Virus record (IMG/VR): IMGVR_UViG_3300049846_000568
Location: 62,001-126,000 of that record
DNA from: a virus
Direction: 5' to 3' (one strand)
DNA: 64,000 bases
This document shows, piece after piece, positions 6,083 to 51,200 of the stretch. The translations under genes were made by a program, and so were the position numbers. A model generated the notes under the pieces. The model searched no databases and had not been told where the DNA came from. It saw only the letters and a program-made list of their open reading frames with translations. Every line of letters begins with the position of its first letter. The first letter of the stretch is position 1.

Positions 6083-6092
6083 ATTACATCCT

Positions 6093-9700: not shown

Positions 9701-9715
9701 TACGGTCTTCTCCAG

Positions 9716-26907: not shown

Positions 26908-28095
26908 TTAGTTGTCTAAGTAGATCGTGTGCTCCGAAGTTACTCCGTGAACTGGATGGACGAACTGCAAGTGCTGAGATGGTCTGCCCATAACGGCAAG
27001 GGTCTCTTGCGCATAAGTGTTGTAACTTTCGGGCGACCCACTGATCCTGAGGATTGAGCTACCAAGAGTCATCTTGCAGTTCTGGTGATAATGCCCCATG
27101 AATACGTCACCGAAAGGTTCGGGCACTGCGCCATCCTTCCAACCCATTACCTTCTTGTAGTAGGTGTGGCTAGACGTAGGAGGAGGTAGCTGGTCTCCGT
27201 GTATTAGTAACGTGCCATACTCGCCAATGGTATCAACAGCGTAGAAATTGCTTTCGCCATGACCATCTGGGATATCAAAGGTTACTCTTGGCTCATTTGC
27301 AAACATGTGCTCCACAATCTTGTAGAGCAGTCTGTCCATATTTGTCTCAGAGTTGTACTCTCTCCTACTGCGGCCACCAATTGATCCATGGTTGCCAATT
27401 ACGCCAACAAAGTGAACGTGCTCAAACTCCTGTAGAAGTCTGAGAATCATGTCTCGGATAATCTCCGGACCATTTACACCCACCTGCTTATACAGGCTTG
27501 AATCGATTAGGTGTGACTGACCAGAGAAGATATCCTCACCCTCAACAATGTCACCAATAAACCAAAGGTGGATATCTCTTACGGGATGATCTGCCCTCTG
27601 AACATTTGTTACCTCAATAATTCTCTCTGTATACTTAGCAATTCTCTCGCGGCATACTTCTGAGTTGTAGGTAGGGGTAACCTTGCCTAGCTGCCAGTCA
27701 GCGCAAACGGCTACTGCTGTTTCCTCGTCTCCACCAGAATAGCGAATCTTTGGCGGATCAACCTGAGGCGGGCGGATCTTCTCTACAGCCTCCTTCATAG
27801 CATCGTACACGGCGTCAACAGCGTGATGCTTGATGATCTTGTGCTTGTCTGCCAATCGGGCGAGACGAACTACCTCTTTACGAAGGAAGATGACTTCCTC
27901 TTCAAGATCTAGGTCGTCTAGACTATATGCTGGGGCCACGCTTTTAGCGACAGCTTCAGCAACATCTTGAGTCCAAGCTCTACGCTTCGCTTCATTCTCC
28001 GCGTTTCGCTTACATCTAGGACCGCAATACTTTTGATTGTGTACTACCGGCTCAAAAGTGTTGCTGCAATCTGGTCCAGCGCATTCTCTATCCAT
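26908..28095 (-). CDS. Metallophosphoesterase with N-terminal zinc finger
   Basis: A calcineurin-like metallophosphoesterase of 395 residues. Metal-binding blocks are in order: ADWQLGK (Asp133/Gln135), GDIVEGE (Asp182), GNHGS (Asn235/His236), HGDQ (His299) and GHYHQ (His335/His337). The first block has D-x-Q in place of the usual D-x-H, a known variant. The N-terminus carries a Cys4 zinc-binding site (Cys5, Cys10, Cys24, Cys28), followed by a helical linker with a coil (~62-110). Related enzymes act as DNA nucleases or phosphodiesterases; with a zinc finger in front, a nucleic acid substrate is plausible. It sits inside the baseplate gene run, 12 bases after baseplate J and 10 bases before the giant fibre gene, so it is transcribed late with structural proteins. 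Whether it enters the virion is unknown. Confidence 0.85.
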   Translation of the reverse strand: MDRECAGPDCSNTFEPVVHNQKYCGPRCKRNAENEAKRRAWTQDVAEAVAKSVAPAYSLDDLDLEEEVIFLRKEVVRLARLADKHKIIKHHAVDAVYDAMKEAVEKIRPPQVDPPKIRYSGGDEETAVAVCADWQLGKVTPTYNSEVCRERIAKYTERIIEVTNVQRADHPVRDIHLWFIGDIVEGEDIFSGQSHLIDSSLYKQVGVNGPEIIRDMILRLLQEFEHVHFVGVIGNHGSIGGRSRREYNSETNMDRLLYKIVEHMFANEPRVTFDIPDGHGESNFYAVDTIGEYGTLLIHGDQLPPPTSSHTYYKKVMGWKDGAVPEPFGDVFMGHYHQNCKMTLGSSILRISGSPESYNTYAQETLAVMGRPSQHLQFVHPVHGVTSEHTIYLDN

Positions 28096-28107: not shown

Positions 28108-29247
28108 TTATGAGGCTATCTGTATTGTGATGCTACCAGGGATTACCTGCTCGTCGTCTTTGACTACGTAGTTCCTACGAATTGTCTCAACGCCGCGCGG
28201 TGCGAATCTATTGATACGCACGTCCTGGATAGCGGATGATGTGTCCATGATCGCCTGGATGAGTCTATTATACACCAAAGTATCGCCCGGAAGAAGCGAA
28301 TTGATGTAACGCATCACTGAAACTCTGACCATGTCTGCTAGGTTGTCTTCAACAACCGAAGATCCTAGCACAATCGATACTGAGATATCAACCAGGATCG
28401 TGCTCGGTTCCTTAACAATCATTCGTACGCCAACTGGCCGTACTTGGTCCATCGCAACTTTAGCCGAGGCGTAGACACCCACCGATGAGGTCGGGTTCTC
28501 CGCGATTACAAGAGCTTCAAAGGTTCCCATACCATAAGGAGCCTGGCGAATCTTCACATCGCGTACACCATTGACATTTAGGGCGGCGAACCTAACTGCA
28601 TCTGAAGTTCCGGAACTTGCTACACGGATAGCCTTAACTAGTCGTACTCGGAAGTTTTGATCGCTCTCATATCCAGGCTGTGGAGCAATAGCCTTAGGGT
28701 TTGTACAGTTTACCGTAGTACCTGGAGGAGAGGTAAAGTTATGGGTAGTCAGCGTATTAGCGGCGGCGCTGAACATCCCGTCGCTGAAACTTGGACGAAT
28801 CGAAGCAAAGACCTTTGTACGGCCCGCCTGAATGATCGCCTCGGCCGTTGTATCGAACGCGAGCTGCCTACCAATGAACGAATCTATTCCCGTATATACC
28901 CGAGTTCCTGAAGGAATGACAATATCGGAACCATAAGGCGTATCAATGTAGAAATAAAACGCTCCAAGCTGCGCATTAACGGCAGCCATATCCGATAAAG
29001 TACGGCGTCTAATGCCATAGAGTTCCCCCAAAAGATCTAATGATCTACCTGTAGCGGTAGAAATAACAGACTGAGCAAGGTTGTACTCTAAGGCATCATA
29101 CATGTCGCCCAACTGCTCACTAATGGCCTCGGTAAATGCCCGTGCTACAGAACCTGGACTAGTAGAAGTGATGGGAGTATCCTTCTCAAGCCGCCAAAGG
29201 GCCTCTCTCAAGATCTCTGCTCGTCTCTTTCTAGCATAAATTGCCAT
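28108..29247 (-). CDS. Baseplate J-like wedge protein
   Basis: A 379-residue protein of the baseplate J / T4 gp6-gp47 type, which forms the inner wedge ring around the hub in contractile tails. Recognisable features are the N-terminal helical block (TSPGSVARAFTEAISEQLGDMYDALEYNL...), the TGRSLDLLGELYGIRR motif, the beta insertion with IPSGTRVY, the DQNFRVRLVKAIR segment and the C-terminal repeats built on VNGVRDVKIRQAPYGMGTFE. The ATG at 29247 overlaps the stop of the gp25-like gene as TAATG, the usual gp25-J pairing in myovirus baseplates. Its length is normal for the family. Confidence 0.92.
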   Translation of the reverse strand: MAIYARKRRAEILREALWRLEKDTPITSTSPGSVARAFTEAISEQLGDMYDALEYNLAQSVISTATGRSLDLLGELYGIRRRTLSDMAAVNAQLGAFYFYIDTPYGSDIVIPSGTRVYTGIDSFIGRQLAFDTTAEAIIQAGRTKVFASIRPSFSDGMFSAAANTLTTHNFTSPPGTTVNCTNPKAIAPQPGYESDQNFRVRLVKAIRVASSGTSDAVRFAALNVNGVRDVKIRQAPYGMGTFEALVIAENPTSSVGVYASAKVAMDQVRPVGVRMIVKEPSTILVDISVSIVLGSSVVEDNLADMVRVSVMRYINSLLPGDTLVYNRLIQAIMDTSSAIQDVRINRFAPRGVETIRRNYVVKDDEQVIPGSITIQIAS

Positions 29248-30377: not shown

Positions 30378-31241
30378 CTACTTAATCTGTATATGCACGT
30401 GGTTAGGATTGTCTGGAAAGTCGTAGACATTCTTACCGTTTGCTGGCGGTAGTGGAGTGCTTCTGGTTCCTCGCCCAAAGCCAATACTCCAGGATGTGTC
30501 CATCATATCAATAACGGCAGAAACTAGTTTGTTTGCTAGTTCGTCACTGCCATTCGTCTGCTTATGGTCAATGTAATCGATGTCGATACAGAATCCCGCG
30601 CCATGAGATGTTGGACTCTCTGGACGGATAAAGGAACTGATCTGAATTGGGAACTGATCTGCTGCACCAACAACTAATCCGAGAAGGCGAACATCTACTT
30701 CGGTCTTACCCATACTGAGGGGGACTGAACCACCATTAGCGAGTGTTTCGAATTGGCCACGTGGATTACCTGGGTCAAACGTAATGTTGGGATGGGTGAT
30801 AATCTTCTGAGCAAGGTCCTGAACCTTACCAGAAACGAACTTTCCTGTTCCACCTACATACGTTCCGGTAGGTTGGGTAGACGAAGCCGAAGTATATGCT
30901 GTTGATGCGATATTCCCAGCCTTGGATGGATCAGGGTCGGCATAAACGACATCATATGGATTAAGCTTGTCGTCTCGCCTCGTGAACAAGGTTTCCTGCC
31001 CCATTGCCCCGAGCTCCTTGCTGAGCTCCTGATTAAATGCGTCATATGTGGCACCGGTGGGCTTATATAGGGCGACACCCTGGAGAGCATCGGAGATGCT
31101 ATATGTAGTCATGGCTAGAATAGGCTCACTGCTCTGTGATTGTGTGGTCTTCAGTGGAGTTCTACCTCCCTGATTTTCTACCTGCGCTTTTGCAAAAGTC
31201 TTTGCGTCTTTGAAGTCGCCCAAAGAATAATTGAAACCCAT
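30378..31241 (-). CDS. Tail-associated lysin: docking domain + M15-like D,D-peptidase
   Basis: A 287-residue protein of two parts. Residues 1-~110 form a module nearly repeated in the next gene (the shared ...YDAFNQELSKELG... region). After a Ser/Thr/Gly linker, residues ~135-287 resemble zinc D,D-carboxypeptidases/endopeptidases of the M15 type: SHGAGFCID gives His213 and Asp220 (the SxHxxGxAxD pattern) and NHVHIQI gives His283. These would bind zinc and cut peptidoglycan stem peptides. With the sister lysin it probably opens the cell wall locally during injection. The ATG at 31241 overlaps the previous stop as TAATG, with GGGGG upstream. The catalytic Glu/Asp before the HxH is not obvious, so activity is likely but unproven. 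Confidence 0.8.
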   Translation of the reverse strand: MGFNYSLGDFKDAKTFAKAQVENQGGRTPLKTTQSQSSEPILAMTTYSISDALQGVALYKPTGATYDAFNQELSKELGAMGQETLFTRRDDKLNPYDVVYADPDPSKAGNIASTAYTSASSTQPTGTYVGGTGKFVSGKVQDLAQKIITHPNITFDPGNPRGQFETLANGGSVPLSMGKTEVDVRLLGLVVGAADQFPIQISSFIRPESPTSHGAGFCIDIDYIDHKQTNGSDELANKLVSAVIDMMDTSWSIGFGRGTRSTPLPPANGKNVYDFPDNPNHVHIQIK

Positions 31242-32143
31242 TATGAAGTACCCCCTCTAACTTTGTTCACCGCATCTATTGCAGCGGGTAGGTATTTCCG
31301 TACGTCCAAATCTGGTCTGCTACCGTCCGCAGAAGTGCCATCGGGATTGGTTGCCCAAGGTCTTAAGTTTGTGCCGCCTTTAGACAAGAAATACATAGCT
31401 TTGGCGTTAGTCCAAGGATCGGTAAGGTCCCTAGCACGCCATTCTGTCAGATACTGCGGTAGCATGGCGCCATCAATGACATTGAACTGCCAAAGACCCC
31501 AAGAATTATCCCCTGTTGAGGCATTACCATTATGCGCTTGAGAGTTACCTGAGGACTCACGCTGAGAAATCGCAACAAACAAGGCAGCTCTGTTCGGATC
31601 AGTAATGCCAACGGACAAAACCAGATCAGCTCTCTGCTCCATTGTTAGTTGACCGGCTGGCCAGGACTTGCCAGGTGGCGGAGTAAAGACCTCTGTGCCG
31701 GGACCGGGATTCGGGTTAATGCTAGTACCGGCGCCACCCCCCTCAACTGATGGAGCTGCAGGACCACTTGATCCGGGTGGCATTGAGGAGCTTCCATCCT
31801 GTAGGGTGATGCTGCCAAGCGTAGATGGATCTGGATCTCTCACGAAAACATCATAAGGAGTAAGCTTGTTGTCTCTAAGTTCCCACCGAGCCTCAAGCCC
31901 CATATCACCAAGTTCCTTACTTAACTCCTGATTAAACGCGTCATAGGTTACGGCGGGATGCTTGTAAAGAGCCATGCCCTGCATGGCATCAGAGATGCCA
32001 TAGGTGGTCATAGCCAAGACTGGCTCATCACTCTTAGATTGGGTGGTGTGGAGACCTTTCATGACCCCCTGTTGTTCGACCTGGGCCTTAACAAAGGTTT
32101 TGCTGTCTTTTATGTCTCCAAACTTGAAATTTACGTCGCCCAT
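31241..32143 (-). CDS. Tail-associated lysin: docking domain + lysozyme-like transglycosylase
   Basis: A 300-residue protein. Residues 1-~110 are the same docking module as in the M15-like lysin, at very high identity. A Pro/Gly-rich linker (~118-165) leads to a lysozyme-like domain: ISQRESSGNSQAHNG with the likely catalytic Glu196, the SWGLWQFN motif (215-221) and a C-terminal helical part with the pattern DPWTNAKAMYFLS ... LRPW. This matches SLT-type transglycosylase/lysozyme folds, which cleave the glycan strand of peptidoglycan. It is coupled to the giant hub gene before it and the M15-like lysin after it by TAATG overlaps. Different catalytic heads on one anchoring module suggest that both attach to the same hub site or to neighbouring equivalent sites. 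Confidence 0.85.
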   Translation of the reverse strand: MGDVNFKFGDIKDSKTFVKAQVEQQGVMKGLHTTQSKSDEPVLAMTTYGISDAMQGMALYKHPAVTYDAFNQELSKELGDMGLEARWELRDNKLTPYDVFVRDPDPSTLGSITLQDGSSSMPPGSSGPAAPSVEGGGAGTSINPNPGPGTEVFTPPPGKSWPAGQLTMEQRADLVLSVGITDPNRAALFVAISQRESSGNSQAHNGNASTGDNSWGLWQFNVIDGAMLPQYLTEWRARDLTDPWTNAKAMYFLSKGGTNLRPWATNPDGTSADGSRPDLDVRKYLPAAIDAVNKVRGGTS

Positions 32144-35100
32144 TATTTCGGTCCAAGGATTGCGCCTCTATCGAGATCGTTTAGAGTTAACTTTGTGGTG
32201 TCGACATCTGCGTAGCCGGCCATAATCATCTGCCAGTTAGCGGTGTATGGCAGGCCGTTGTCGAGATATCCATCCCAAGCTGCAGCCGGAACTGGAGATG
32301 GCTTCCAGCCACCATTACCGTCTGGTATACGCCCCGCCTGAGCCATCAGAACTTCTTCCCTTGATACGTCGGGGGCATCGGGGGCGTTGTGGAATACCAC
32401 GGCCAGCTCACGACCCCAGTGCTCTTGCGGCCTCGACTTCAGTTGGCGCACCACCACAACAGTACCCACCGGTATGATAGACTCCAGGTATTCTTTGGCT
32501 CTAAGGCCAATGTCGTCTTCTGGGACATATTCTGGGTTCTGGTGATTCGCAAGCTCGGGGGCTCGAACACCAGAAAGACGGAAGCTCAATTCGACATTTG
32601 CCCCATTGGCGGCTAGATCGCCACCAACAACAATGCCGTTAAGGGTATCGCCGTCTTCTACCTTTGTTACACGCATAAGAGAAACAATATACTGCTCATC
32701 AAGCATTGGGCCGTCAGGGGATAGACCTGCGATATCTAGGATATGACCCTGAGTTTGTGCAACCCACCAACTCGTCTGCTTATATGCTAGAGCAGTATCT
32801 ACCTCATTCCAGCCTAGATTGCTTAGCAGTTCATTAACCGTAATGCGGCCGTCAGTATCGACGCGAATACCTAAGATGTTGGGGAGCAGCTCTATTGTAT
32901 GGAAGCGACCAACCGCAACACCTTGAGCATATGATAGTCCGGCGTCCATGGGCTGACCATCCTTTGTAAGGTACTGGATATAGCAGCCGTGTTGATCTAG
33001 GAGGTTGTCCTTTACCCAGCTCCAAATATCCCAACCAAGATCCTTGAGAAGTCCAATACCAGGAATATTGCCAGCCTGTAAAGCTAGAAGATCCGTATTG
33101 TTCGGATTACCACCCTGAGGCCCGAGGGGCAATCCACCCTTCTGCTGATCCGCTGCTTCGCCCTGGCTCTTAACTTCTTCAAGAAGCTTCATACGATCTG
33201 CTTCTGTCTGATATAGACCTGTCGCCTTTGCCGCAACGAAATCCTTAACAATTGCATTTGCGCCACCATCATACACGGTGTGCCCAATCATTGGGACCGA
33301 GAGCATTTGTGCAAGGTCTGCTGTTGTGATCCAATCACGAGTTCTAAGGATGCTTGTATCGTCTGCAAAAACGCCCATGTGGTGCCGTGTATCGTCGCGA
33401 ATGTTCTTCGCACCAAACAATGCCGTAATCCACTTCGTAAACGTCCATCGAGCTGGGTCGTTGATTGTAACAAGCGCATTTGGTGTGATGGCGGTTATGA
33501 ATCCCTCTTCCGGAGTGAAGTGGTGTGTAACAGCCTCAACCTCAACAAGACCATACATGCGCTCGTAAACGTCTGCGATATAAACCAAGTCGTGAGCCCT
33601 AATGTCTGGATCTCCCAGCACGAAGATCTCACCCTGGTAGATATCTTTCAGGCTCTCCTTCAAATGCCACAACGCAATACGCTTAGACAGTAGCTCATCT
33701 GAAGATCCTTGAGCTGCCTTACTATAGCCTCTCAGCGTTTCGATTGGATTCATTAGTGGGTGAAGGAACGAAAAGAAGCCCTCACCATTTGCGTTATCCC
33801 AATAGATACCAGTCTCAACGGCCTTCTCGTTCTGAAGGTTAGACTGAATACCCTTGTCAAAGTACACGGTTACTGGATACTTACCATCAGAACTTGCCGT
33901 AACGACTGTAGATACACCATTTAGATTTTCCTGAATACCGTTGCCAAGGATGTGTTGGAATGAATCGATATAATGCAGCCTCTGGAACGGTTCGCGAATC
34001 TCGATAACTGGTTCACCATACTCACGGGTGAATGGATTGTCCACCATCTTCAGTAGGTCGGGCCTGCCATCGGGTAGGTAAGAGCCCTCGGCGTAGTAGA
34101 TGGAGTCGTTTAGCACTCGATTAAGGACTCGAGCCTGACGCTGCATGTTGCCGACCATATCAAGGCCATAGCCCAGCTGCTGGATCTGGCCGCGGAAGAG
34201 AGCAATGAGACCCTGCAGTGAGTTAGCGGAGACCGAAAGCAGTCTGCCAATTGTATTGTTGTATGAGTTAGAGAGGTCTTCAAGCCGTCGAGCTAATGGG
34301 TTCTGAGACTTCTTGCCTGGATCTGAGTAATCTTGCAACCACTTTAGTAACTCCGTTGCACTATCTGATAGTTCGCCATTTGGCCCCCTATCCCACTTCT
34401 TTGTCCAATCGGTAATTGGACCCTTAACCTCCGTATTTGATAGTGGGTCTGAGCCGTGGAATGCATCGCGAGCTGTAATCCTCAGGAATTCCTTCCAAGC
34501 CAGACGCACACGGCTATTCCCAAAATCGCACAATTCATTGGCATTTACGGCGTCGGTAAGTTCTTCTATCTTGCCCGGAGGAATAATGAACGCTACTGGA
34601 CCAAGAACGGCTGTCGCTCCCGCCTTTGCTAGTCCCTGACCAAACCAGTTACCGGTGATAAACTCGACACCAGTAGCCAGCATTGAATCCGTTGGCAGGA
34701 TAGAGGTGTTGAAATCCGTCGTGACCACAAGCCAAGCCCTAGCATACGGGTGCTGCCACAGGAACTTCTTGAACGTACCAACAAGAAGAGTTGGTAGATA
34801 GTCATACTTATCATCAGCGCGATCGGGATCATATTCGTCAATGGATCCGTCAGCCCAAATGCTAACCCTGGCCCCAGGCGGGTTCTTTGATGCCGCCTGC
34901 CAATAGGCTTCCTCTTCGAGGGTATAACGTCCAGCATTATCTACGAGTGGGTCGTACTTGTCGTCGCCTTCTGCTGGAGCGAATTCTTTCTTTGTCTCTG
35001 GGTCAGCATCGAAAAGGTAATCTCTACGAGTCTTCCAGGGACTTTCCTTAATCTCCGCTATCACCCCATACTTGTCCCCTTTACTGCCAATACCCCAGCT

Positions 35101-38100
35101 CTGCCGGAACTGATCCCAAATCATCTCAGCCAATTGAACAACATCGCCAGGCTTAACATCATCTTTGGCGGTAGGGTCATTTGGATCCTGCTTCTGGTCT
35201 AGCTGACCAAGATCGGTAAACGCACTACCGAAATCAAGTTCGGTTGACCCCAAAAGGGCCTCTTTGCCTAGAACACCTTTCTTGACCAGTGTGTGAATTC
35301 GCTGGGCGTACTCCCGATCATAAAGCAGTCTGGCGTAATGACCTACTGGGTCAATATCCGCTGCTCGCTTTACGGACTCAATTGGATCCTTCTTTTCGTC
35401 TTCATAGTGTTCTACAACACTCCAAACATTGATGTTTGAACTTAAATAGCCTCTCGTATAAGAACTAAACGCCTTAGGGTCGGCGCCGGGAGCAAGTACG
35501 TTTGCGTATGCTTTCGTTGCCGTTGAAAGTATGACGTTGGCGGTATTGACCTCTCCACCTGAACCACTCTTACTATCCGGGTTTTCAGATGCTGACGCCG
35601 TACCCGAAGTTCCGCTGGACGAGCTACCGTCAGTTGGTCCGAGCTTTGTGTTTTGGGGAACAAAACCAAAAAAGCAGACAGAATCATCGGTGCCAGTGCC
35701 AACACCATCAAGGCCAAGGGCATACCAGCAATCTGGGGACATACCGGCCACAATCTTTAAATCGCCACCAGGGCCATAATCACCTATGGCAGCGATAACT
35801 ATCTTGCCGGTTTTCCTACTCTTAATGGCTACACGCTTACCCCTATAATCTTCCTGATTGTGGCCCGGTATCTTTGGGTTGCCCTGTTCAGTCGACTCAA
35901 CGTATGGCCAGCGCATGTTGAAATACCACTGCTCTTCTTCTGGTCCAAAACCGGGCTGATTGAAGTACATAAAAGCACCGTTCTGACCAGGAAGGTTAGG
36001 GTCCTGCGCATCTGGATCGAAACCTGGATCGCCGCCACGAAGACCGCCCACCCTATCCATATACCGCGGATGCTTATGCTTATCTGGAAGGTTCGAACTC
36101 TGTAGGTGCTTACTAACATCGGCCTGAAGATCTGGGTCTGTCGGTAGATGCATTTCCATGACTGTCGGGCCCTGGCGGAATGGGAGCTTTACCTTAGAAT
36201 TTGATTCTTCTGTTATTGGCTTTCCGCTACCGTCAAGGAATTGTGGTAGCCCCTCTACATCGGCGCCAGTGTACGGCATTCCAACATTAGTCTTAGCCGG
36301 GTTCACCGCAGTAACCTCATTTAGAGACTGGAAAAGCTTCTGCTGGGCCTCAAAGTCCGCCAATGGGTTGGCCATGTTGCGCATTTTCTCTAGGAGCCTA
36401 CGCTGCTCTTCGTCTGGAGCGATTGGCTTTACGCTCTTATCGTCCTTCGCAATACCGGTTGTTACCGGAATGACACCAGAAGTATATAGCCAATGTGGCT
36501 TACCGTAGAAGACTGTAGATCGATCCTCAAATGGTCGAACCGCAACAACATAGTTTGGTAGTAGTGCTGCACAAACCTGGAATAGATCCCATACTGACTT
36601 CATGTATGTCTGGGCGCGGAACGACACCTCATCAAAACCCTTAAGGTCATCGTCGTGGTGGTTTGTAATACCAAGAGCGTTGAGTAGTGGGTTATCATCA
36701 AGATCTCCATCCATTACCTTGTTGAAGAGATCCCAACCAGACTTAGCTAACCCATAAGTACCAAACGTTACACCGTTGACATTCGCTTCAACAAACCCCC
36801 CTAAACTTGGTCCAGAGTCTTGTGTCTGGTCTTCTTTCTTCTGCTCGTCTTTCTGGGTGTCTTGCGTCCCAGTTTGGCCCCTCTTAGCTCGCTCGATATC
36901 TGCTTTACGCTTGACTTCTGGAGACTTAAAGATGGGTGCCTGTCCACCATCTGCACCCGCGGCCTCAGCGATCATGATACCGGCTTCTGGGAAATCACCA
37001 CCAAGATACTGCGCAATACCGGTACCGTTACCAGGATAAATGTTACGCTTGAAGATCTCGTAGTCCCTATGCCTAAACGAGTTTGCCCAAAGCTGTGTCA
37101 TAATGGCAGCTACGCCAGTTCTTGTACTAGAGTCATTACCGACAAGGTTATCCCACCCACCAGACTTAGACGCTCCAGGGGCAAATGGGTCGTCACTGCC
37201 CGTATCTGGCTTTGCTGCCTTAATGGCCTCTGTTACATAGAGAACCCTCTCACCCTCACCACTAGTCATCTCCTCGTAAAGAATCTGACCGAAGTGGCGA
37301 ATACCAAACTTATTCTCGGAGAAGATCTTGCCATTGTGAGCATTGGCGAAAGTCTCTCGGAACGTGCTTGACCCCATACTAAGGAGGCGAACCATAAGAT
37401 CTCGTGGCTCAGACAACCAAAGACCGGTGTTTATACCGCCGTCAATACCTCCAGAGTCACCGTCCTTATCGGTGGTGTTAATGTATGGAGACAACTCGAT
37501 ACCATCGCCCTGAGCAACAACCTCAACAATGTCACCCTGCGTTACCTGTGTAATCGTTCCGTTGAAGATCGTCTGTAGCGAATTTGGGTTGGCGCTGTAC
37601 CCAGCGCGAAGATGAACACGAACACCTGGCTTTAGACGAATGCCGGCCAGATCTCTAATGTAATTGTTTTGGGTACCAGATAGTATATTGTCGGCGCCTT
37701 GGTCAAGTTTTGTTATGATCTGCTTATCAAGTTGTTGATCAATGGTGTTCGGATCATTTAGGATTTCTGCCAATGAAGGATTATTAGGATTAAGATCAAG
37801 AGATGTGCCATCTTCATTAACTCTGACCATTCGACTAGAAGGAGTATCAAGCTTTGAGTACATGTTGGACAAACGAAGCGTCATGACGTCGCCAAGGACG
37901 TCCTCAGACGAATGTACGGAGAAGTCGATAACCGACTGTAGCCCATAGAAGTTGTCGAACAACTTGGTACCAGCAAAGTTGCCGCCCTCATCGATTAGCC
38001 ATAGCATGTACGTTGGGAAGGCGCGGACCATACGACCAGAACGACTACGATACTGAACGTCTTCGATCATCTGCTGCACCTGGTACATTGGGTCGTTGCG

Positions 38101-41082
38101 GCCAAGCGATTCACCTGGCTTCTGAGCTGTAGGCTGACCATAGCCTTTATCGCCACCAAATGGTGTTGTGACTCCGTCAGCTAGCGCCTTGTTCAGCGAC
38201 TGTCCGGCATGGTCTTCCCTAACTGAGCCAAATCCCGCCGCTGGCTTTGTTGGATCTGGACTTACGATGTCAAATTTGCCAGTAGACATATCAACATTGG
38301 CGAGAGCAGCATCGCCTTGCTTAATCGCAATACCGCTCATTTGTGGCTTGCCATCACCAAATGGTGGGAAATGAACATTCATCTGAATGTTCTGTGCACC
38401 ATATGCTTGATCTGCCAAGTTGGGATCGATGCCGGTGTATGGCGTACCATCTGGGTTATTGTTTTGATCCGCTAACTGCTGATCGACCGCACTTGGCTGA
38501 ATAGGCTTCTTCCTACCCTGGCTTGCCTGTGGCTCATTAAACGAATCGGCGTTGTGTACAGGGTCTTCAATATTCTTCGTGTTTGGATCGTAGGCGGTGT
38601 TTTCCCAAGTCTTACTTGGACGGTTCCGCAAATTCTGCTGCACCAGGTCGTCATCAAAAGTCTGGAACGACTTAAAGTAAAAGTCGGGGTCTAGATGTCC
38701 AATAAGCCTTCTTTTCTTGCCACGAAAATGGAATATGTCGACCTCTTCATATACACCCAGAGGAAAATCTGGATAGGCGTTAAAGGAACTCCATAGCTGC
38801 TTAACCCGCAGGAACGGGTTACGCTTACCAAACATCTCAATGAATTCTTTTTGCTGCTCGTTAGAGAGCATTTCTCTCTTCTGCTGGAAGATATCGAAGT
38901 CCACCATATCAAGCCGTACGTTGTAAGCGTGGGGTTGATTGGGGATGGTGTCGATGGAAAAGTTCAACGGCACGACATATTTGACACCACAGAGTGTTGT
39001 AATGACGTTCTTAATGCCTAGGAATCCCAACATGCCATGTGCATGTTCCAGCCTTGCTAGACCACTAATGTGATCGAATGCGCGGCGAAGTTTGATAAGG
39101 TCATCTTCACCAAGCACAATCATGTTAACGCTAACTACGGCGTCCTTGCCGCCAATGTGCTGAAGTGTTGGCTCGGCCTGCATTTGAAGCTGCAGTCTTG
39201 CGAAGTTGTTGCCAAGCGAAACTGAGACGCCCTGAACCAGAACCTTACTCCAGTCAAGGGATAGCTTGGTCATTGGAACATCCCACTCAGCGATACGCAT
39301 TTGTCGCTTTGCGTTTTCCTGATCCATGTACTGCTTGAAGAGCGGGGAATTCAAGTGCCCCTTGAACATGTAGTAGAACCATAGCTCTTTAACAAGCTTG
39401 GTGTCTGCCTCTTCCATGCGATCAGTATAGCCGGAACCCAGCTGTGTCCTACGCTGATTGACGCGCTCTCTAATGTAGGCGTTCATCTTGTCTTCATCCA
39501 TATTGGTTAAGGCAAGGCCCTGGCGCTTTAGGTATTCGGTAAGTATATCGTATTCACTAATACCGCCATGAGGACCAGATGATGCGGCCTGGTCGAAGTG
39601 ATCTAGGTAGTCGTATAGCGACTCGGGGTGAGCTAATGGGTTGTAGCCAAGCGTTGTTAAAAACTGGGCCCACAAATCCCGGCTTACCTCCAACTGATTA
39701 TCTTCACCCGGCTGACGCCAAGCATAAGTATCTGGAGCGTATACCTTTACGGGCGTGTTGGATGGGTAGTAAATATCGAATTTGTTTGGATTGTCATTAC
39801 CGGAATCTATTCCAAGATCTGCCAGCTTAGAGAACGAACTCTGTGAAGATCCAGTACTATCAAGAATCTTTGCATCGCGTGGAGCTTTAGGGTCTGGGTT
39901 TTCTTTCTCGACAAGGAAGCCTTGATTCACATATGAGTTCAGCTTATTCGCAGCGCGCCCCATATACTGGCGGAATCTACCCCACTTAATAGCCTGGTTG
40001 AAATCCTTAACCATAGGTAGGAATACCTTATGGTTGAAGCTAAGAAGCTCAAGGTTCACCGCCAAACAGAATGGGTAGTTCGGCATGGTCTGTATGCTTA
40101 TAGACTGCAGTGCCACTGCGGTAATGTCGTAAGTTCTGTTTAGGTATTCGTTCCTGATCGGGAGAATGGGCGAATACTTGAACTGTGCTATCAGACCGCG
40201 AAGGGAGGAGATAAACCTATCAATCTTCTCATCCGAATCTCTATCGAAATCAATATCCTCGTCAAGACCAGGATAGCCCCAAATGGATTCCTGGTTTGGG
40301 AAATACAGCGTAAGAGAGATTGTGGTATCTGTATGGCCGGTATTGAACTTTGGACTATTCTGCTGTCTGATAGCCCCACCGGTCATACTACCGGCACGGT
40401 AGCTCTGATTTACCTGAATGTTAATCGGTGGAACAAAGAAACGAGAACCGCCAATCCTGATCTGGTAAGGAAGAGTAAGTGGGGGAGGAGTTTCATCGCG
40501 CTCGTGCTCGCTAAGCCATTGCGCAACCTTTGACTGGGTATCGATGAAGTCGCCAGCCCAAACAAACTTACCACTCTTGCCATTACTGAATAATTCTAGG
40601 TACTGTTCAATGGTCTGCTTTGGATCTTTAGCCTGTGCGGCGTCAATTACTTGCGCATTCTGCACATCCTTCAGGAACCTCTGCCACTTATCGTAGATAA
40701 ACCTCAGACGTGGGAAGTACCTAATAGCATAGCTGAGTAGTTCGGGATCCTGGGATAGCCTAACTAGCAGGTTGTTATACTGAGGATTAAACGCATGATC
40801 CGACTGGATGTTGTCCCTGTTGTCGAAGTAATCTTCGAGGCTCTGCCAATTCTCTACAAGATTTGGAAACCCTAACTTGTTCAGCTCGTTAAGAACACGG
40901 GCCTGGACCTCTGCCGACAATCTAGTAAACTGCTTGGATGGTTTGGTCCAACTATAGTCACCATCAGCTGGCTCTAGTGGGTACCCATCAACGATTACTG
41001 GATGATCGTGGATAAATATGCGGCCTGCTACCTCTTCCGGTGTGGTTTTCTTATCGTAATACTTAGACGGATCGTACGACAT
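32143..41082 (-). CDS. Giant baseplate hub protein with RlpA-like barrel and C-terminal nuclease-like (SNase) domain
   Basis: The largest gene in the window (2979 residues). Residues ~1-800 contain two similar beta domains (endings TMPNYPFCLAVNLELLSF and TIPNQPHAYNVRLDMVDF). Residues ~1000-1250 look like a gp27/gpD-type hub region (IFNGTITQVTQGDIVEVVAQG). Around 1700-1800 is an RlpA-like double-psi barrel with FMYFNQPGFG and the GDYGPGGD turn (near 1769), as found in actinophage tail proteins acting on cell wall. Residues ~2800-2905 resemble staphylococcal nuclease: KVEDGDTLNG, FRLSGVRAPEL and HWGRELAVVF keep the equivalents of catalytic Arg35, Glu43 and Arg87 and one calcium ligand (Asp21); the Asp40 position is Arg. 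Charged Q/K-rich linkers separate the parts. It probably forms the hub and carries wall- and DNA-directed activities. TAATG overlaps bind it to both neighbours. Confidence 0.8.
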   Translation of the reverse strand: MSYDPSKYYDKKTTPEEVAGRIFIHDHPVIVDGYPLEPADGDYSWTKPSKQFTRLSAEVQARVLNELNKLGFPNLVENWQSLEDYFDNRDNIQSDHAFNPQYNNLLVRLSQDPELLSYAIRYFPRLRFIYDKWQRFLKDVQNAQVIDAAQAKDPKQTIEQYLELFSNGKSGKFVWAGDFIDTQSKVAQWLSEHERDETPPPLTLPYQIRIGGSRFFVPPINIQVNQSYRAGSMTGGAIRQQNSPKFNTGHTDTTISLTLYFPNQESIWGYPGLDEDIDFDRDSDEKIDRFISSLRGLIAQFKYSPILPIRNEYLNRTYDITAVALQSISIQTMPNYPFCLAVNLELLSFNHKVFLPMVKDFNQAIKWGRFRQYMGRAANKLNSYVNQGFLVEKENPDPKAPRDAKILDSTGSSQSSFSKLADLGIDSGNDNPNKFDIYYPSNTPVKVYAPDTYAWRQPGEDNQLEVSRDLWAQFLTTLGYNPLAHPESLYDYLDHFDQAASSGPHGGISEYDILTEYLKRQGLALTNMDEDKMNAYIRERVNQRRTQLGSGYTDRMEEADTKLVKELWFYYMFKGHLNSPLFKQYMDQENAKRQMRIAEWDVPMTKLSLDWSKVLVQGVSVSLGNNFARLQLQMQAEPTLQHIGGKDAVVSVNMIVLGEDDLIKLRRAFDHISGLARLEHAHGMLGFLGIKNVITTLCGVKYVVPLNFSIDTIPNQPHAYNVRLDMVDFDIFQQKREMLSNEQQKEFIEMFGKRNPFLRVKQLWSSFNAYPDFPLGVYEEVDIFHFRGKKRRLIGHLDPDFYFKSFQTFDDDLVQQNLRNRPSKTWENTAYDPNTKNIEDPVHNADSFNEPQASQGRKKPIQPSAVDQQLADQNNNPDGTPYTGIDPNLADQAYGAQNIQMNVHFPPFGDGKPQMSGIAIKQGDAALANVDMSTGKFDIVSPDPTKPAAGFGSVREDHAGQSLNKALADGVTTPFGGDKGYGQPTAQKPGESLGRNDPMYQVQQMIEDVQYRSRSGRMVRAFPTYMLWLIDEGGNFAGTKLFDNFYGLQSVIDFSVHSSEDVLGDVMTLRLSNMYSKLDTPSSRMVRVNEDGTSLDLNPNNPSLAEILNDPNTIDQQLDKQIITKLDQGADNILSGTQNNYIRDLAGIRLKPGVRVHLRAGYSANPNSLQTIFNGTITQVTQGDIVEVVAQGDGIELSPYINTTDKDGDSGGIDGGINTGLWLSEPRDLMVRLLSMGSSTFRETFANAHNGKIFSENKFGIRHFGQILYEEMTSGEGERVLYVTEAIKAAKPDTGSDDPFAPGASKSGGWDNLVGNDSSTRTGVAAIMTQLWANSFRHRDYEIFKRNIYPGNGTGIAQYLGGDFPEAGIMIAEAAGADGGQAPIFKSPEVKRKADIERAKRGQTGTQDTQKDEQKKEDQTQDSGPSLGGFVEANVNGVTFGTYGLAKSGWDLFNKVMDGDLDDNPLLNALGITNHHDDDLKGFDEVSFRAQTYMKSVWDLFQVCAALLPNYVVAVRPFEDRSTVFYGKPHWLYTSGVIPVTTGIAKDDKSVKPIAPDEEQRRLLEKMRNMANPLADFEAQQKLFQSLNEVTAVNPAKTNVGMPYTGADVEGLPQFLDGSGKPITEESNSKVKLPFRQGPTVMEMHLPTDPDLQADVSKHLQSSNLPDKHKHPRYMDRVGGLRGGDPGFDPDAQDPNLPGQNGAFMYFNQPGFGPEEEQWYFNMRWPYVESTEQGNPKIPGHNQEDYRGKRVAIKSRKTGKIVIAAIGDYGPGGDLKIVAGMSPDCWYALGLDGVGTGTDDSVCFFGFVPQNTKLGPTDGSSSSGTSGTASASENPDSKSGSGGEVNTANVILSTATKAYANVLAPGADPKAFSSYTRGYLSSNINVWSVVEHYEDEKKDPIESVKRAADIDPVGHYARLLYDREYAQRIHTLVKKGVLGKEALLGSTELDFGSAFTDLGQLDQKQDPNDPTAKDDVKPGDVVQLAEMIWDQFRQSWGIGSKGDKYGVIAEIKESPWKTRRDYLFDADPETKKEFAPAEGDDKYDPLVDNAGRYTLEEEAYWQAASKNPPGARVSIWADGSIDEYDPDRADDKYDYLPTLLVGTFKKFLWQHPYARAWLVVTTDFNTSILPTDSMLATGVEFITGNWFGQGLAKAGATAVLGPVAFIIPPGKIEELTDAVNANELCDFGNSRVRLAWKEFLRITARDAFHGSDPLSNTEVKGPITDWTKKWDRGPNGELSDSATELLKWLQDYSDPGKKSQNPLARRLEDLSNSYNNTIGRLLSVSANSLQGLIALFRGQIQQLGYGLDMVGNMQRQARVLNRVLNDSIYYAEGSYLPDGRPDLLKMVDNPFTREYGEPVIEIREPFQRLHYIDSFQHILGNGIQENLNGVSTVVTASSDGKYPVTVYFDKGIQSNLQNEKAVETGIYWDNANGEGFFSFLHPLMNPIETLRGYSKAAQGSSDELLSKRIALWHLKESLKDIYQGEIFVLGDPDIRAHDLVYIADVYERMYGLVEVEAVTHHFTPEEGFITAITPNALVTINDPARWTFTKWITALFGAKNIRDDTRHHMGVFADDTSILRTRDWITTADLAQMLSVPMIGHTVYDGGANAIVKDFVAAKATGLYQTEADRMKLLEEVKSQGEAADQQKGGLPLGPQGGNPNNTDLLALQAGNIPGIGLLKDLGWDIWSWVKDNLLDQHGCYIQYLTKDGQPMDAGLSYAQGVAVGRFHTIELLPNILGIRVDTDGRITVNELLSNLGWNEVDTALAYKQTSWWVAQTQGHILDIAGLSPDGPMLDEQYIVSLMRVTKVEDGDTLNGIVVGGDLAANGANVELSFRLSGVRAPELANHQNPEYVPEDDIGLRAKEYLESIIPVGTVVVVRQLKSRPQEHWGRELAVVFHNAPDAPDVSREEVLMAQAGRIPDGNGGWKPSPVPAAAWDGYLDNGLPYTANWQMIMAGYADVDTTKLTLNDLDRGAILGPK

Positions 41083-44400: not shown

Positions 44401-45289
44401 TATCTGTTCTGCCTAAGAATATCTCCATCTGAAGGAGGTCGTCCTCCATCGCCTTTTGCATGTTTGCGATGACGCGAGGATTAAGAACACTCTTACCTTC
44501 AACCATCCTCTCTGCGACTTCTCTGGTAATGCCGTCCATTGACTGGCCAGTCATCATGCCATACATTTCTGCGTAGTTTGTAAAGACTAGGGCCTTAATC
44601 TTATCGCTATTGTCCATAGCAAATTCATCAAGATTGCTGATGACTTTCTTTCTCTTTTGGAGCTTTACAAAAGCCCGATCCTTAGCCATTTGTGCGGCCC
44701 TTACCGCTTCAGCTGGGGTTTTAGCTCCAGCTTCAGCCCTTGCTTCTATGGCATTGACACCGGAAGTCAAATCAAACAAACCCAAACGACGAGCTTCTGC
44801 CTCAATATCTTCGCTGAAAAGCTGCTCTCTTTTTCCTGTAGCCAGGTTAATCTTGTATACCTGGGTAAGTACGGTTGTTTCTTTATCGCCAGTAAGAATA
44901 CCGATTTGCTTTCCACCATTAGCGATGAGTTTTGCCAATGCATCTATATCAATTTTGCTGGAGTCAAGCGAAGTCCTCACAACTTCAATACGATGACCCT
45001 TATAGGAGCCACTGGCAAAGCCGCGAGCTATGCTCTGTTCGCGTGTATACTTCCAGAAACTAGATCCAGGAAGAGACTCAACAAAATCAGATGTAATAAC
45101 ATGCTGAGTTTTTACACCCAGCTTACTACGAGCAGTTTCTAATTCGTACATGTCCGTATAAAATGTCCCCATAAATTCGACACCCCAACGGCCGCCACGA
45201 CGCTCCACCTTATATCCACCCTGAGATTGCGCTTCCTTAAGTAAGGCGGCGTGAACCGGGTTTGCTCTGATTTCATCGAAAGTTGCCAT
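41468..45289 (-). CDS. Large helical virion protein of unknown function, tape-measure neighbour
   Basis: A 1273-residue protein, mostly helical with long charged stretches (~190-330, ~900-1050), one hydrophobic segment near residues 1170-1190 (GSIAAAGLIGASLLY), and a disordered Pro/Gly-rich tail. I do not recognise a catalytic family. A compact region near residues 590-645 (NALDWANGLAATHGG, then ADLDD, then RDGDNLV and KRSPLGVGELSL) is the most conserved-looking part. Its clustered Asp residues followed by an R-S-P...G-E segment recall, weakly, metal-binding loops of large phage enzymes. The start overlaps the tape-measure stop as TAATG. Candidates are an ejected internal protein or a tail-tip component. 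I have low certainty about function. Confidence 0.7.
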   Translation of the reverse strand: MATFDEIRANPVHAALLKEAQSQGGYKVERRGGRWGVEFMGTFYTDMYELETARSKLGVKTQHVITSDFVESLPGSSFWKYTREQSIARGFASGSYKGHRIEVVRTSLDSSKIDIDALAKLIANGGKQIGILTGDKETTVLTQVYKINLATGKREQLFSEDIEAEARRLGLFDLTSGVNAIEARAEAGAKTPAEAVRAAQMAKDRAFVKLQKRKKVISNLDEFAMDNSDKIKALVFTNYAEMYGMMTGQSMDGITREVAERMVEGKSVLNPRVIANMQKAMEDDLLQMEIFLGRTDITEAARRQTERDLRKLDEAIGRLKSLRKNGGVLEGFRMGGFDWEWAQRAGLDEETFEMIRNGIIKGDVHVIGEKQWKATASHMAGILGNTVDEVLGADIIAPAASFAKEASIRGVSFHITHMKAGVPIDQQLLAVAGDEVFDAAHGFGAFTQYNLEAFKGSMKTLLETGELPKAYKAHMRRILDVDSNDPTMIRSIIGSESIPELRKQQERARRILTSLEMGINPANDEAMLRDVAGGMIDFLRKSTVGSKADDLFGLIPYSIQGHATTDFFTRLIGGRGVAKGSFGISQEYGTIYNALDWANGLAATHGGADLDDLMASLLYRDGDNLVSLTKRSPLGVGELSLSTLDDKSYWDVADLLTSGDEIVAQNQGLRAALEAATFVGDDGRPVLGFAKASRTSALNLSVIGSILREHAPEMTPALKQRLQTIARLGDHPAQVPFAIQVLNSETYSDVLQRARALMPYLPEPQDIDVTEILAKYPNLSEEMQASIAYTARQGGHTLERYSLVREMSDQMAILLENLGAPVPKGILTPFEMEPIIDLIAQGQAKGYEALLPKDVELATQALERGMVRAALIVRQTMGINILDPGRLTGDGRNSASIANMERHLKAMQGEFSLAGVGGIDELLMSPEDPRSINAQSKLAQERMLFEAQKYVDEAAAGMEKSDPFRRTFFDDQAIEDADMMKQAFDDAMAMANAERTGILPNHMQKELFGKTVVDVEDDLFKRSFARDEMRRAFVSTFEDGKMTRRALHAMGAFMQRYGDEFAASDLGNTAAYWKARAYFELRTPSPSGKRSSLRRLAGQKITSDDILGDISPGFVTEGMQSRGARAAAYDVAKDVAAGIRGRGPQGRTISDLVTKMWDVPSFRKGSIAAAGLIGASLLYRKTKDRSVDDFQGPPLLPGGSFYEDMPSPDMPQQDPHSVVNNGGGVIYKVNARGGFSSDRFRAAAETITGTRASGSVYSALPRKRQDPREAFGR

Positions 45290-48200
45290 TAGTAAACACC
45301 TGCATTAACTTCTAGACGCGTTCCAGGGTAGGGCGTCCTAATCATTTGCACATCACCATGAATGCCATTTCCATGCATTAGGTCTCTCAATCTACTTTTT
45401 ACATCCCCGCCTCTCGAAACGGCGTTGAAGGATGGGTAGGCGGGATTAACTAGGTTCGCTTCACGTACCTGCTGTGGATAGTACCCCATTTGGGACATAT
45501 CCAACCCCATACTCTGGCCCATCTTCACCTTAACCTGATCCATGTTTGTGTTCGGGTGCCACAGCGATGAACCAGGACCTGGTAGTTCGTGGTGTTCGAA
45601 GTACTCATCTAGATCGGGCCTTGCCTCAACTTGACGACCCCACACAGCTTCAAGTGCCCGACGCTCCAGCCTTCCTGCCGTAGAAAGGATCCTGTCCCTC
45701 TCCTGCTCTGGAGCTTGCGCCATTGCCATAAAATGCTCTCTCTTGCGCTTTGGAATGGCCTGGGCTATCTGGTCCACTGGAGCATTGTAGACGTCTACCC
45801 CATATAGGGTGCTTGAAGCGCGGCGCTTATATTCTGACGCTGCCTGCATGTCACCCATAGTAGAAGCCATATTGGCGAGGTGTGTGTTCTTTACGTAGCT
45901 CAATATGTCGGTATACTCCTCAAGAGCTACTTCCTTGCGCCTGAACTCCGGCATGTACCGGCGACCAGTTACGGCTTCCTGAATCTTGCCAATCATACTG
46001 GAGGCAAAACCTAAGCCTGCGCCAGCAACGGCGCCAATAACCTTGCCTTGAGCCGTCTTACCAAACAGGGTACCGGTACCACCAAGGACAAGGGCTGCCT
46101 GGAACGGGTCACGCTGAGTGGACTTATAGAGCATCGGCTCAAAGAAGTCCCTAATCGGATTTTGCCACTGGGGGAAAGTGGCACCATAGACGTTGAAGCG
46201 CTCCCAATCCTCTACCGCGGTTCTATTTGGCATGAACTTGGTATTAAACGGGGTGTCGAAGTGTTGAAATGCCTCCCAACCTCGCTCAATAGCCTGAACC
46301 GTATTGGTTGGAATGGTGTACTTATGTTGGTAGGGCGTGAACTCGTGTTCTTGTGCCTTTGCTGCAACCTGGTCACGAGTAAGCTGAACCTGCTCTGCGG
46401 CCGATCCCTCAAGATTCCCAACGACCCTATCGATGCGCCTATACTCTTGAGACCATGGAGCTACATCGCCCAAGATCTTGTGGATATCAGCTATACCATA
46501 CTTGCCGTATCGGTCAGAATGAAGTTGATGTAGTCTTTCGTAACCAGTACCAGGAAGACGCATTTCGCCTTCAGAGATCTTAGTGTAAGGATCGCCGGTG
46601 CTGAAGTCTAGGTAATATCCAGAGTTGCTGTTTGGTAGCCAGGGATACTGCTGACCCATCTGGTTGCGAATCGGGTTAATGAACTCTGTACCGCTTCTCT
46701 CACGAGGAATGAATCGGCGGATGATTTCAGAGAACTCGATGTTGGCGAAGTTACCTTCAAGAGGGCTAGGCACGTCGCCAAGACCGCCAAGACCAAGGCT
46801 CCAGAATCCGCGAGTAGACCCGTAAGCCCTGCCAGCGGAGTCGAGAACTGGGCGGGCGGTTGTGAGATCCTGATTACCAAAGCCCAAGGACTCTCGAACA
46901 GCACCGAACGCGAAGCCGTAGATACCGGCCATTTCCTGCAGCTCATAACCCAGCTGACGTGACTGATATCCAAGGTTTCTCGTTGATGTTGGAGGTGCGC
47001 CGCCGATAACTCTTGGCGACATTGCCCCAGGGGCCTGCACTGGGCCATAGGCACCAGAGTATGCTGCTGCTGAATATCCCGCGTTTGTGCTGCTAATAGA
47101 GCCGAAGCTAATGTTACGGCCTGTTGCCATAGGTGTTCGACCTGCGGCTGACATACCTGCGTTAGCGCGCGAAATGGCCATCCCCGCACCAGCAGCACTC
47201 ACGGATCCAGACGCTGGCAGGAAGATTCCGCTCTTACCACTAGTGGCGCCTACCGTAGTCATACCGCCAGCGGCTCCACCGATAACAGACATAGCCCCTG
47301 GACTACCAGGAGGAGCAAAGTATGCGCCCTGTTCACCTGTTGGCAGGTATTGCGAGAGCCCACCTTCAAGCTCCTGCTTGTGCATCTTGATTTGAGGTTT
47401 TAGAACGCGACCTACTGTGGCGTTCAATGCGGAGCGGAGTGGACCCCAAGGACCGGTGAAGTATTCGCCCGATGCCGGATATGGCCTATCGGCATAGTGC
47501 TCACGCTCAAACCTATATGGGTCTAGAGGCCTTAATGGTGAGAAGTCATAACCAAATGCTAGACGCTCAAGAGGTGAACCATATGCCTGGTCTGTATAAG
47601 CATAACCAGACTTTAGTCGGCGGTACCAACTAGGCCTGAAATACTCAATGCGGCCACCCTTCCAAGGTGTGTTACCAAGTGGCCACCAACGGCCAGACCT
47701 AATTGGTACTTCACCCTTGAAGATTTCATCGCGTTTCTGCTCAAACGTCTGACCACCAGGCATAACTCCGGCCAAAGCAGCCTGACCATATGCGACGCCA
47801 GTTGCTAGGCCACCAAGGAAGTAGGGGGAGTAAACTCTGTTCCCCTCTGCGTCCTTGGGGTTCGCAAAGCCACCGACAGTTCTGTCAAGCGCTACTGCTG
47901 TAGTACCGGCTGCGACCAGCGGTAGAATACGCTGACCAACAAGACCACGCGCATACATGTCCATTGGACTCTTGTACTTTGTTGGGTCCAGCGACATGCC
48001 GACAAAGCCAAAGCCCTTATTGAGACGATCTACAAGGTGGCCACTAAGAATTGAGGAGCCAGAGAAAGCCTGTCTATTACTCCAGGTGTTCATGCCCAGA
48101 ACGCTAGCCACTGCCCCCTTTGGGTTACGAGCATACGCGGTGGCAAATGTCGGGACTAGCGCAATGTTGCCACTAAATGGATCGTATTCCTGACCATGAT

Positions 48201-51200
48201 ATTCATATGGGGCCGTTCCGAAGTGACGCTTAAGAAATGGCATTACCTTGCCAAATCGACCCTGCCAACCCGAACCGGACATCGCCTCATACTTACCAGT
48301 AGCAACATCCCCAATGAGGTCGTGGCTAAGTGCTCCACCCACATTAACAAAGTGTTGCATGGCAGCTTGAGTATTCTGAAGTGTACTGAACTTCGGGTTA
48401 TAGCCGATGAAGTTCGAGTAATCTAACTGAGTACCAAGAAGAGCTGCACGAGCCTCAATATACTGAACTCGCGAGATCATACCGCGACGTTTCATAGATT
48501 CTAGCTGCTGGCTCATATCGCCAATAGCGCGCTCGAATCCGCCTCTTTCATTATTGCCCAGAATACCCTTCATCGTGATTAGGTACTTCTGGAAGTCAGC
48601 GCGGAACTGATCCTCTCGTGTACTAATTGTTCCAGAAATACCAGGAACTGAAGTATCCCAGTAAGTCGAGCCCGGTTCGTTCTTAATGTGTCGATATACT
48701 AGGAGCTTCTGTGCGCGTCGTACAGATGTCTGCACCTCGCTAGACATAATAGAGGCGTCATCGAGGTGCTGCTCTGCTGTCAGCCTGGCAAACTCAATAA
48801 GCTGCGCTTGTGACTTGATATCGGCCAGATTATGAACTCCGGGAGCAATAATGCCGCCAGGAACACCTTTCCTTAAGTTGACGTTGAAGACTCCGCCATC
48901 TCCATCTTTTGTTCTGAATGGGGCTTCATTCTCCAGCTTACGTGGAATACCTCTAGCTCGAAATAGATCTGGGAACCTGTCAAATGCATTTGCCACTGCC
49001 TGCTGGTCAAACGCGACACGGCCAGCACTTCCCGTGGGCTGAGCAAGATCGTAGACAACACCCCTCTTAACGTCTAAGCGTAGACGCTTTCCCTTAGCCT
49101 CAATGGTCTCCCCAGAAAGGAGCCTGGAGAAGACGATTGGGTTATTGATATCCGTGTGACGATTACGGAAACGACCAAACCAACCAAAGACAGAGTCTGG
49201 CTGGTGATCAGAAATGTTAAACGCAGACTTAAACCTCTCCCATCTTGTAGGCTGACGAGGGTTTCCATTTGCGTCTACTAATGGCGCAGAAATACGACCT
49301 AGATCACCCGCGGCAATCTTGACCTGATGAGCTTCAATTGTGTTGGCTACAGTAGAGATTGGACGGTACTTACCAGGAAGCACATGTTCCCTAAGCAGGC
49401 CATCCTGACCCCACTTGAATGATGCTACGTTGCCCTTACTGCCACGAGCGGTGGCGCGAGTCCACATCAAGAAGTCTGGGTTGTCTGCGCCCTGCAAGAA
49501 TGGCTGGTTGACGTTACCCGAGACGTACTGAATCATCGAGCGTTCACGCATATTGCGGAAGCCAGAATAACCAAGTGTCTTCAGTGGCATGAGGTGGATA
49601 AGGGGGATCTGGAACTCGTCTGCCAGCTTATCGTTGAACTTGCGGATTCCCCTTCGAACAGAGTTGAAATCTAGCAGCTCACCATTGACGCTCTGATAGA
49701 GGCCGCCAACATTGTAGCGACCCATCGAGGATACGGGGTCTCGTGCGCCCATCGTCTTGATAAGGCCACGAATCTCGTTTTCTCTCTTATCGGTTGTACG
49801 GAAATAGCCTTTATCTAGGGCCTCCTCCACGCCAACTGCCCTGTAACCAAGGAAGTTGTAACCGCCCTTATTCCAGGGTTTGCTAATTGCCTTCTTGGTA
49901 ACAAGCTGGGCACGGAGTGCACCGAAGTTCCTGGGGTCTAGACCTATGCGCTTTAGGTGATCTTCCACCATAGCGTCGGAAACAACATCGCCAACATCAT
50001 TACGCATGCGCAGACCGGTAAGCTCTGCGGTCTTACGTGTTAGGAATTTCTGACGCTCTGTAGAGAGGCCACCACTAAACATCTGATAGGGGAGTTTGCC
50101 CTTGCCGAGAATTGATTCACCCATACGGGGAACCGTCTCGTTATAGAATAGGTTCCACTCACCAACGATTCTGTCGTCAATACCTTTTCTTAAAGCGCGA
50201 TCTTTGAAGAGGTGATCCACCCTTTCAATCGCATCCGGCATGTGCTTGATGAAGTTTTGGGGATCTTTAAGCTTGAGTTGGCCAGCGAGATATGCATAGA
50301 TCTCCTGGTCACTATTCATCTGTAGTGACTTACCACCCACCTTAAATCGGCTTGTGATGTGTGTGCCGGTTATTGGAGCGTTAACTCCTACTACCTGATG
50401 GAATCTAGCGATAGCTTCTTCGTCTAGGCCAGCTTTACTTAGCTCCTGCCTCAACCTAGCGTTGTAGATGTCGTGAACTCTGTTTTGGTAGAATTCACCA
50501 TTCTTCCAGGCAGGGTTTACCCTGCCATTTCGTAGAACTGGCTGACCGCCACTTAACCTGTCTAGCGAGCCAAGCAGTTCTTCAATTGGTGAGCCCCCGC
50601 CATACAGCGCTTCGTTAAGCGCTTTCTTTTCATCGGGGCTGGCATCACGGATGAATGCAGACCTACCCTTTGCGAGCATTGAGGAAAGAGCTTTTTGCTG
50701 AGCCTCAATACTTGTGCTCGCCTCCCTCGCGGCCTGTATACCAGAATACATACCCTTGAAGGGACCGGGCAGGGCGTCAAATGGTGATGTCGGCATCTTC
50801 GTCAGAGCACCGCCTAGGTTAAAGAAGATGCGAGCCTTCTCACCCCAAATCCGCGCCTTACTCATACCCTTGAACTGGGCCTTATCGATGGCCTCTCTTG
50901 TACCGTGTCGATACCAGTTTAGGAAGTCTACAACGCCGACCTGATTATCGTTGGCCACCTTAACGGCGGTGGCAAAAGCGCCAGTAGAACGACGCGAGAA
51001 GTTAATAGCACTGTTAGCCACTGTACCAAGATCGTGACCAACTTCCTGCAGCAGGTCGCGTACGCCGGTCACCTGCTGATAGGCTATTCGTTGCGACTTA
51101 GTCAACCTAGCAAGGTCGTCGCCATAGCTCAAGACTTGACGAAGACCCTGCGATGCCGCAGCCTGGCCCACGTCAAACGGGCTAAACATGAAGGCTGCGT

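Follow-up and report, generated by a model that had tools for sequence, protein, structure and literature searches.

Does a contractile phage tail carry an active nuclease at its tip, or merely a nuclease fold put to another use? This question is raised by a stretch of 64,000 nucleotides (here called the window) contained in a 145.8-kb virus record, in which a giant baseplate hub gene was noted in a first-pass annotation to end in a staphylococcal nuclease (SNase)-like domain that could cut host or competitor nucleic acid at entry or could be a reused fold that only binds. The additional statement that no well-described example of such a fusion was known has to be corrected. An N-terminal staphylococcal-nuclease domain in the BtI1 homologue of 0305phi8-36 gp147 is reported in the relevant section of Hardies et al. 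(2007; PMC2147016), where the reason for its presence is not explained, and further cases occur in the records of phages MTATph1, KLEB27-3 and ME3. Beyond Hardies et al. (2007), no further description of an SNase-hub fusion was found in the literature. The BtI1 hub belongs to the same family as the window hub and likewise bears a fused SNase domain, but that domain is N-terminal, and the section concerned contains neither a survey nor an analysis of catalytic residues and does not mention a C-terminal form. While the fusion itself has thus been known since 2007, its C-terminal form, its spread, the selection on its catalytic residues, their loss in a single clade and the occurrence of three alternative positions are new.

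The Baseplate Hub and Its Genomic Context

The window hub is a member of the 0305phi8-36 gp147 family. It matches PHROG 20474 (1.3e-134), and tblastn identified homologues in MTATph1 (a Moorella phage), KLEB27-3 (a Bacillus phage) and ME3 (an Acinetobacter phage), the last being termed 'baseplate hub protein' and labeled in its record as a homologue of the 0305phi8-36 hub. In addition, a model of the hub C-tail matches UniProt entry A0A6J5M9K0, 'Baseplate hub protein' (3.5e-18). The lysozyme-like and baseplate-J neighbors (Table 1) confirm the baseplate context, and the gene order in the window (hub, lysozyme-like gene, then a baseplate J wedge gene) is similar to that in KLEB27-3. The gene following the baseplate-J gene within the cluster (26908-28095, minus strand) matches PHROG 284, 'exonuclease' (1.3e-43).

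The relationship to gp27 rests on Hardies et al. (2007; PMC2147016), who tied the 0305phi8-36 hub to T4 gp27 and P2 gpD by HMM-HMM comparison. A core profile of three sequences (A2) retrieved no gp27 structure among PDB sequences and a Pfam search of the hub gave no GPD match, both being weaker tests than that HMM-HMM comparison.

Table 1. Features of the hub gene, its terminal domain and neighboring baseplate genes; positions refer to the window.
Feature	Position	Strand	Basis
Giant baseplate hub ORF, 0305phi8-36 gp147 family	32143..41082	-	2979 aa, ORF translation
Conserved hub core segment A, residues 1010-1235	37378..38055	-	Alignment A2 and relatives found with A2
Conserved hub core segment B, residues 2471-2552	33427..33672	-	Alignments A1, A3; 148 relatives in viral contigs
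Complete SNase domain, residues ~2797-2965	32188..32694	-	Pfam/PHROG/NCBIfam, AlphaFold, Foldseek, alignment A8
DGDT, residues 2810-2813 (Asp19, Asp21 calcium ligand, Thr22)	32644..32655	-	Sequence, family alignment
RLSGVRAPE, residues 2835-2843; position 40 is Arg (R2840), window only	32554..32580	-	Family alignment
Arg87 equivalent R2891, in WGR 2889-2891	32410..32412	-	Family alignment
Tail lysozyme gene (SLT_3/SLT), next after hub	31241..32143	-	Pfam 1.2e-13
Baseplate J-like wedge subunit, further downstream	28108..29247	-	PF04865 3.1e-21; PHROG 6 7.9e-43

The Hub Ends in a Staphylococcal Nuclease Domain

The hub terminates in ~170 residues that constitute a genuine member of the staphylococcal nuclease family, carried on a contractile tail tip. 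Pfam, PHROGs and NCBIfam concur in the homology proposed in the first-pass annotation: PF00565 was found with 6e-4 and 20.6 bits on the C-terminal 205 aa and with 21.1 bits on a trimmed segment of 130 aa (curated cut-off 21), and searches with the full 2979-aa hub returned PHROG 452, endonuclease (1.5e-7), as well as NCBIfam CaNuclEcnA (6e-4). With a profile built exclusively from the stand-alone SNases encoded by this virus and by relatives, the hub scored 32.6 bits, whereas the highest value among 5000 shuffles was 7.0, and C-terminal windows were the sole part of the hub to score; profile-profile comparison of the hub domain with these stand-alone proteins gave 96.6%. The predicted structure agrees with this. 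AlphaFold without templates modeled the domain with a pTM of 0.78, and the best 50 PDB matches obtained for this model with Foldseek were all of SNase type (one being SND1, 4qmg, and the rest staphylococcal nuclease), with a probability of 1.00 and best TM values of 0.67-0.69 by target length.

A domain span of residues ~2800-2905 had originally been proposed. An SNase domain is indeed present there, but it does not end at ~2905, as an insert of ~45 residues (~2900-2945) lies inside it, ahead of the last helices. The segment around NW 2949-2950 (family consensus LNWELVxxGLAxVY) aligns with the SNase segment VNEALVRQGLAKVAY, and the domain therefore extends to about residue 2965. The three motifs occur exactly where they were first reported (Table 1). 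Arg35, Glu43 and Arg87 correspond to R2835, E2843 and R2891, the calcium ligand Asp21 is retained as D2812, and the position of Asp40 is occupied by R2840, just as initially read. The window domain thus shares its fold, the three catalytic residues and Asp21 with staphylococcal nuclease (Nuc, PF00565), from which it differs by Arg at position 40, Ala at position 41, the insert before the last helices and its location within a virion protein of 2979 aa.

Conservation and Loss of the Active Site

Searches of viral contigs and phage records with the C-terminus of the window hub gave no close relatives, and family-level profiles of the conserved core had to be used instead. Scans of viral contigs with such profiles yielded 8, 41 and 148 relatives (of the 148, 80 are among the matches listed). 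An SNase-like domain follows core segment B, as it does in the window, in 65 distinct C-tails of hubs encoded by uncultured phages. The fusion is thus shared with related phages, which the first-pass annotation had named as a point to be checked. The phage collection searched contained no close cultured member of the clade with C-terminal SNase.

Arg35, Glu43 and Arg87 are all kept in 45 of the 65 C-tails, Glu43 and Arg87 are lost in 19, and a single one is a fragment. In a tree calculated from C-tail columns outside the SNase domain, 18 of the 19 hubs affected by this loss form one clade (support 0.849), while contig L009 is a separate singleton. Among 28 non-redundant hubs, with the loss lineages left out, mean pairwise identity within the SNase domain is 34%, and only eight of 91 columns are invariant, namely Asp19, Asp21, Thr22, Arg35, Glu43, Arg87, one glycine and one further arginine. 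The chance of finding the six active-site positions among these eight columns is about 4e-8. The count of invariant columns involves a small circularity, as L009 is excluded from it because the residues are lost there. With six of the eight invariant columns being active-site positions, nuclease chemistry is under selection in the hub family: the sequence pattern is the one expected under selection for SNase chemistry, and it also reveals one lineage keeping the domain without it. Thus, of the two possibilities formulated at the outset, an active nuclease gains from the family-wide selection of catalytic residues, while there is also one clade that does without these residues. The retention of the domain in the 18-hub clade and in L009 argues that the fold is useful without catalysis.

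This bears directly on the proposal that the window domain is a pseudo-nuclease, i.e., an SNase/OB fold that has become a poor or inactive catalyst and binds nucleic acid, a surface polymer or another baseplate protein, which we regard as rather unlikely. Such a role is favored by the hubs that retain the domain devoid of Glu43 and Arg87, by a degenerate SNase-like insert in the large protein encoded upstream of the hub in three relatives, and by position 40 of the window hub. In the 28 non-redundant hubs, this position is Asn in 22, Asp in four, Ala in one and Arg in one, the latter being the window, and Arg is unique to the window among all 65 C-tails. As it sits at the position of the calcium ligand Asp40, the window's own nuclease activity is uncertain, and metal binding may be weakened. 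On the other hand, the window domain, although only 24% identical to other family members, keeps Asp19, Asp21, Thr22, Arg35, Glu43 and Arg87, and free decay would not spare only these.

SNase Domains at Other Positions and in Other Genes

The homologous hubs of MTATph1 and KLEB27-3, listed in GenBank as 'endolysin' and 'putative baseplate protein', respectively, differ from the window hub in that their SNase domain is located near the N-terminus (residues ~125-305). The same placement is seen in contigs L014, L018 and L019, and the equivalents of Arg35, Glu43 and Arg87 are kept in all five of these N-terminal domains. The more distantly homologous ME3 hub contains a clear SNase domain (PF00565, 4.7e-14) which, unlike that of the window, is internal and situated just before an M23 peptidase; here, too, the equivalents of all three residues are retained. 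Catalytic residues hence survive at three places of the hub. The SNase profile found no match in the hubs of L010, L011, L012, L020, L021, L022 and L055.

In a tree of the SNase domain (~120 columns), the C-terminal hub domains are compatible with one origin. A joint origin with the N-terminal hub domains could not be rejected (p-AU 0.25), and the same holds for a joint origin with the stand-alone SNases (p-AU 0.33), so that the tree speaks neither for nor against the 'intragenomic transfer' put forward for the hub SNase by Hardies et al. (2007; PMC2147016). In L032, hub and SNase at first sight seem to be separate genes; this reading was rejected, since the joining sequence continues in another frame, which looks like an assembly frameshift. 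The L032 hub (5420-10258) furthermore harbors an intein at ORF residues ~384-711 (PF14890, 2.3e-10), adjoining a conserved NMRWPY motif that is uninterrupted in the window hub.

SNases are also encoded apart from the hub. Outside the window, the same virus encodes a 130-aa stand-alone SNase in which no catalytic residue is missing (G000:C1:30050-30313, plus strand; L001:1396-1788), and stand-alone SNases, mostly of ~137 aa, are present in 31 of 50 related records searched. No link was apparent between catalytic loss in the hub and presence of a stand-alone SNase, the gene occurring in both kinds of phages and many of the records being fragments. The degenerate insert mentioned above (RVAGV.., DTYRTVGAVVY..) resides in a large protein encoded upstream of the hub in MTATph1 (CDS0026, L003 ~2200-2560), in the MAG containing L055 and in the record containing L020 (loci L059, L082, L079); the window homologue of this protein (45289-51918, minus strand, 2209 aa) is free of the SNase-like module, and its flanks align. 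Phages whose hub gave no SNase match (L013 and L012) encode an intact SNase domain in a different ORF of 1448 aa, located at L071 and L073 of the respective records.

Proposed Function of the Hub Nuclease

Classical SNases are secreted, calcium-dependent enzymes that cleave DNA as well as RNA and require far more calcium than the cytoplasm provides. Peptidoglycan-degrading domains accompany the hub, i.e., SLT_3 in the gene after the window hub and M23 in the ME3 hub itself, and the MTATph1 hub shows a VanY-like stretch with an E value of 0.0026 that falls below the cut-off. Based on the conservation of its active site, we consider it about evenly probable (roughly 0.5) that in the clade of uncultured giant phages that includes the window hub the domain is maintained as a calcium-dependent phosphodiesterase, which would most likely act outside the cytoplasm together with peptidoglycan hydrolases. 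The cell surface and the cell wall or periplasm are plausible sites of action, as the hub travels with such hydrolases and calcium is available outside. There, the enzyme would cleave DNA or RNA that is extracellular or bound to the surface, the wall being opened at the same time by the hydrolases of this tip, and would thereby clear surface or matrix nucleic acid that could hinder the tail. Calcium would serve as the switch: with cytoplasmic supply far below the needs of a classical SNase, the nuclease would be off during assembly, sparing the phage's own genome, and on once outside. We infer nuclease activity, calcium control, site of action and substrate alike. Position 40 speaks against this explanation, being Arg in the window and Asn in 22 of the 28 non-redundant hubs in place of the Asp present in staphylococcal nuclease, and so do the 18-hub clade and L009, in which the domain persists although Glu43 and Arg87 are lost.

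Action inside the host has to be weighed against the extracellular role. VgrG spikes carrying fused or attached nuclease effectors are well established, and the C-terminus of a gp27-family hub would be an analogous place for a nuclease delivered into the host cytoplasm or periplasm upon tail contraction, where it could cut host or competitor nucleic acid in the manner of a VgrG effector. DNase effectors of type VI secretion are exemplified in PMC6688995. VgrG of type VI secretion systems resembles the window hub by analogy in combining a gp27-type hub with a C-terminal enzyme; the window hub, however, is part of a phage virion and its gene lies in a phage tail cluster rather than in a secretion system. 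We judge delivery improbable: cytoplasmic calcium is too low for a classical SNase, a cytoplasmic nuclease would meet the incoming phage genome, and the hub is a structural part of the virion with a domain that is conserved, not polymorphic. Even less credence, indeed very little, is given to the idea that the domain acts on the phage's own DNA in assembly or serves the tail tip as a structural clamp, without any part in host attack. The clade without catalytic residues indicates that structural use would be possible, but contact of genomic DNA with the baseplate is not expected before ejection, and the catalytic conservation in most lineages would be left unexplained.

Biological Significance

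The question of why such hubs contain an SNase was raised in 2007 and left open. Given the family-wide conservation, it can now be addressed by direct tests on a domain that is small and separable. In broader terms, we tentatively propose, with somewhat less assurance than for the extracellular phosphodiesterase itself, that an active tail-tip nuclease may be a recurrent, selected part of the injection machine of this lineage, with an SNase placed at either end of the hub or within it, its active site kept, and cleaving nucleic acid on the surface of the cell as the phage enters. Tail tips are known to bear enzymes directed at the cell wall and at sugar polymers; one directed at nucleic acid would imply that these phages face DNA or RNA on the surface or in the matrix as a genuine obstacle, or exploit it as a target.
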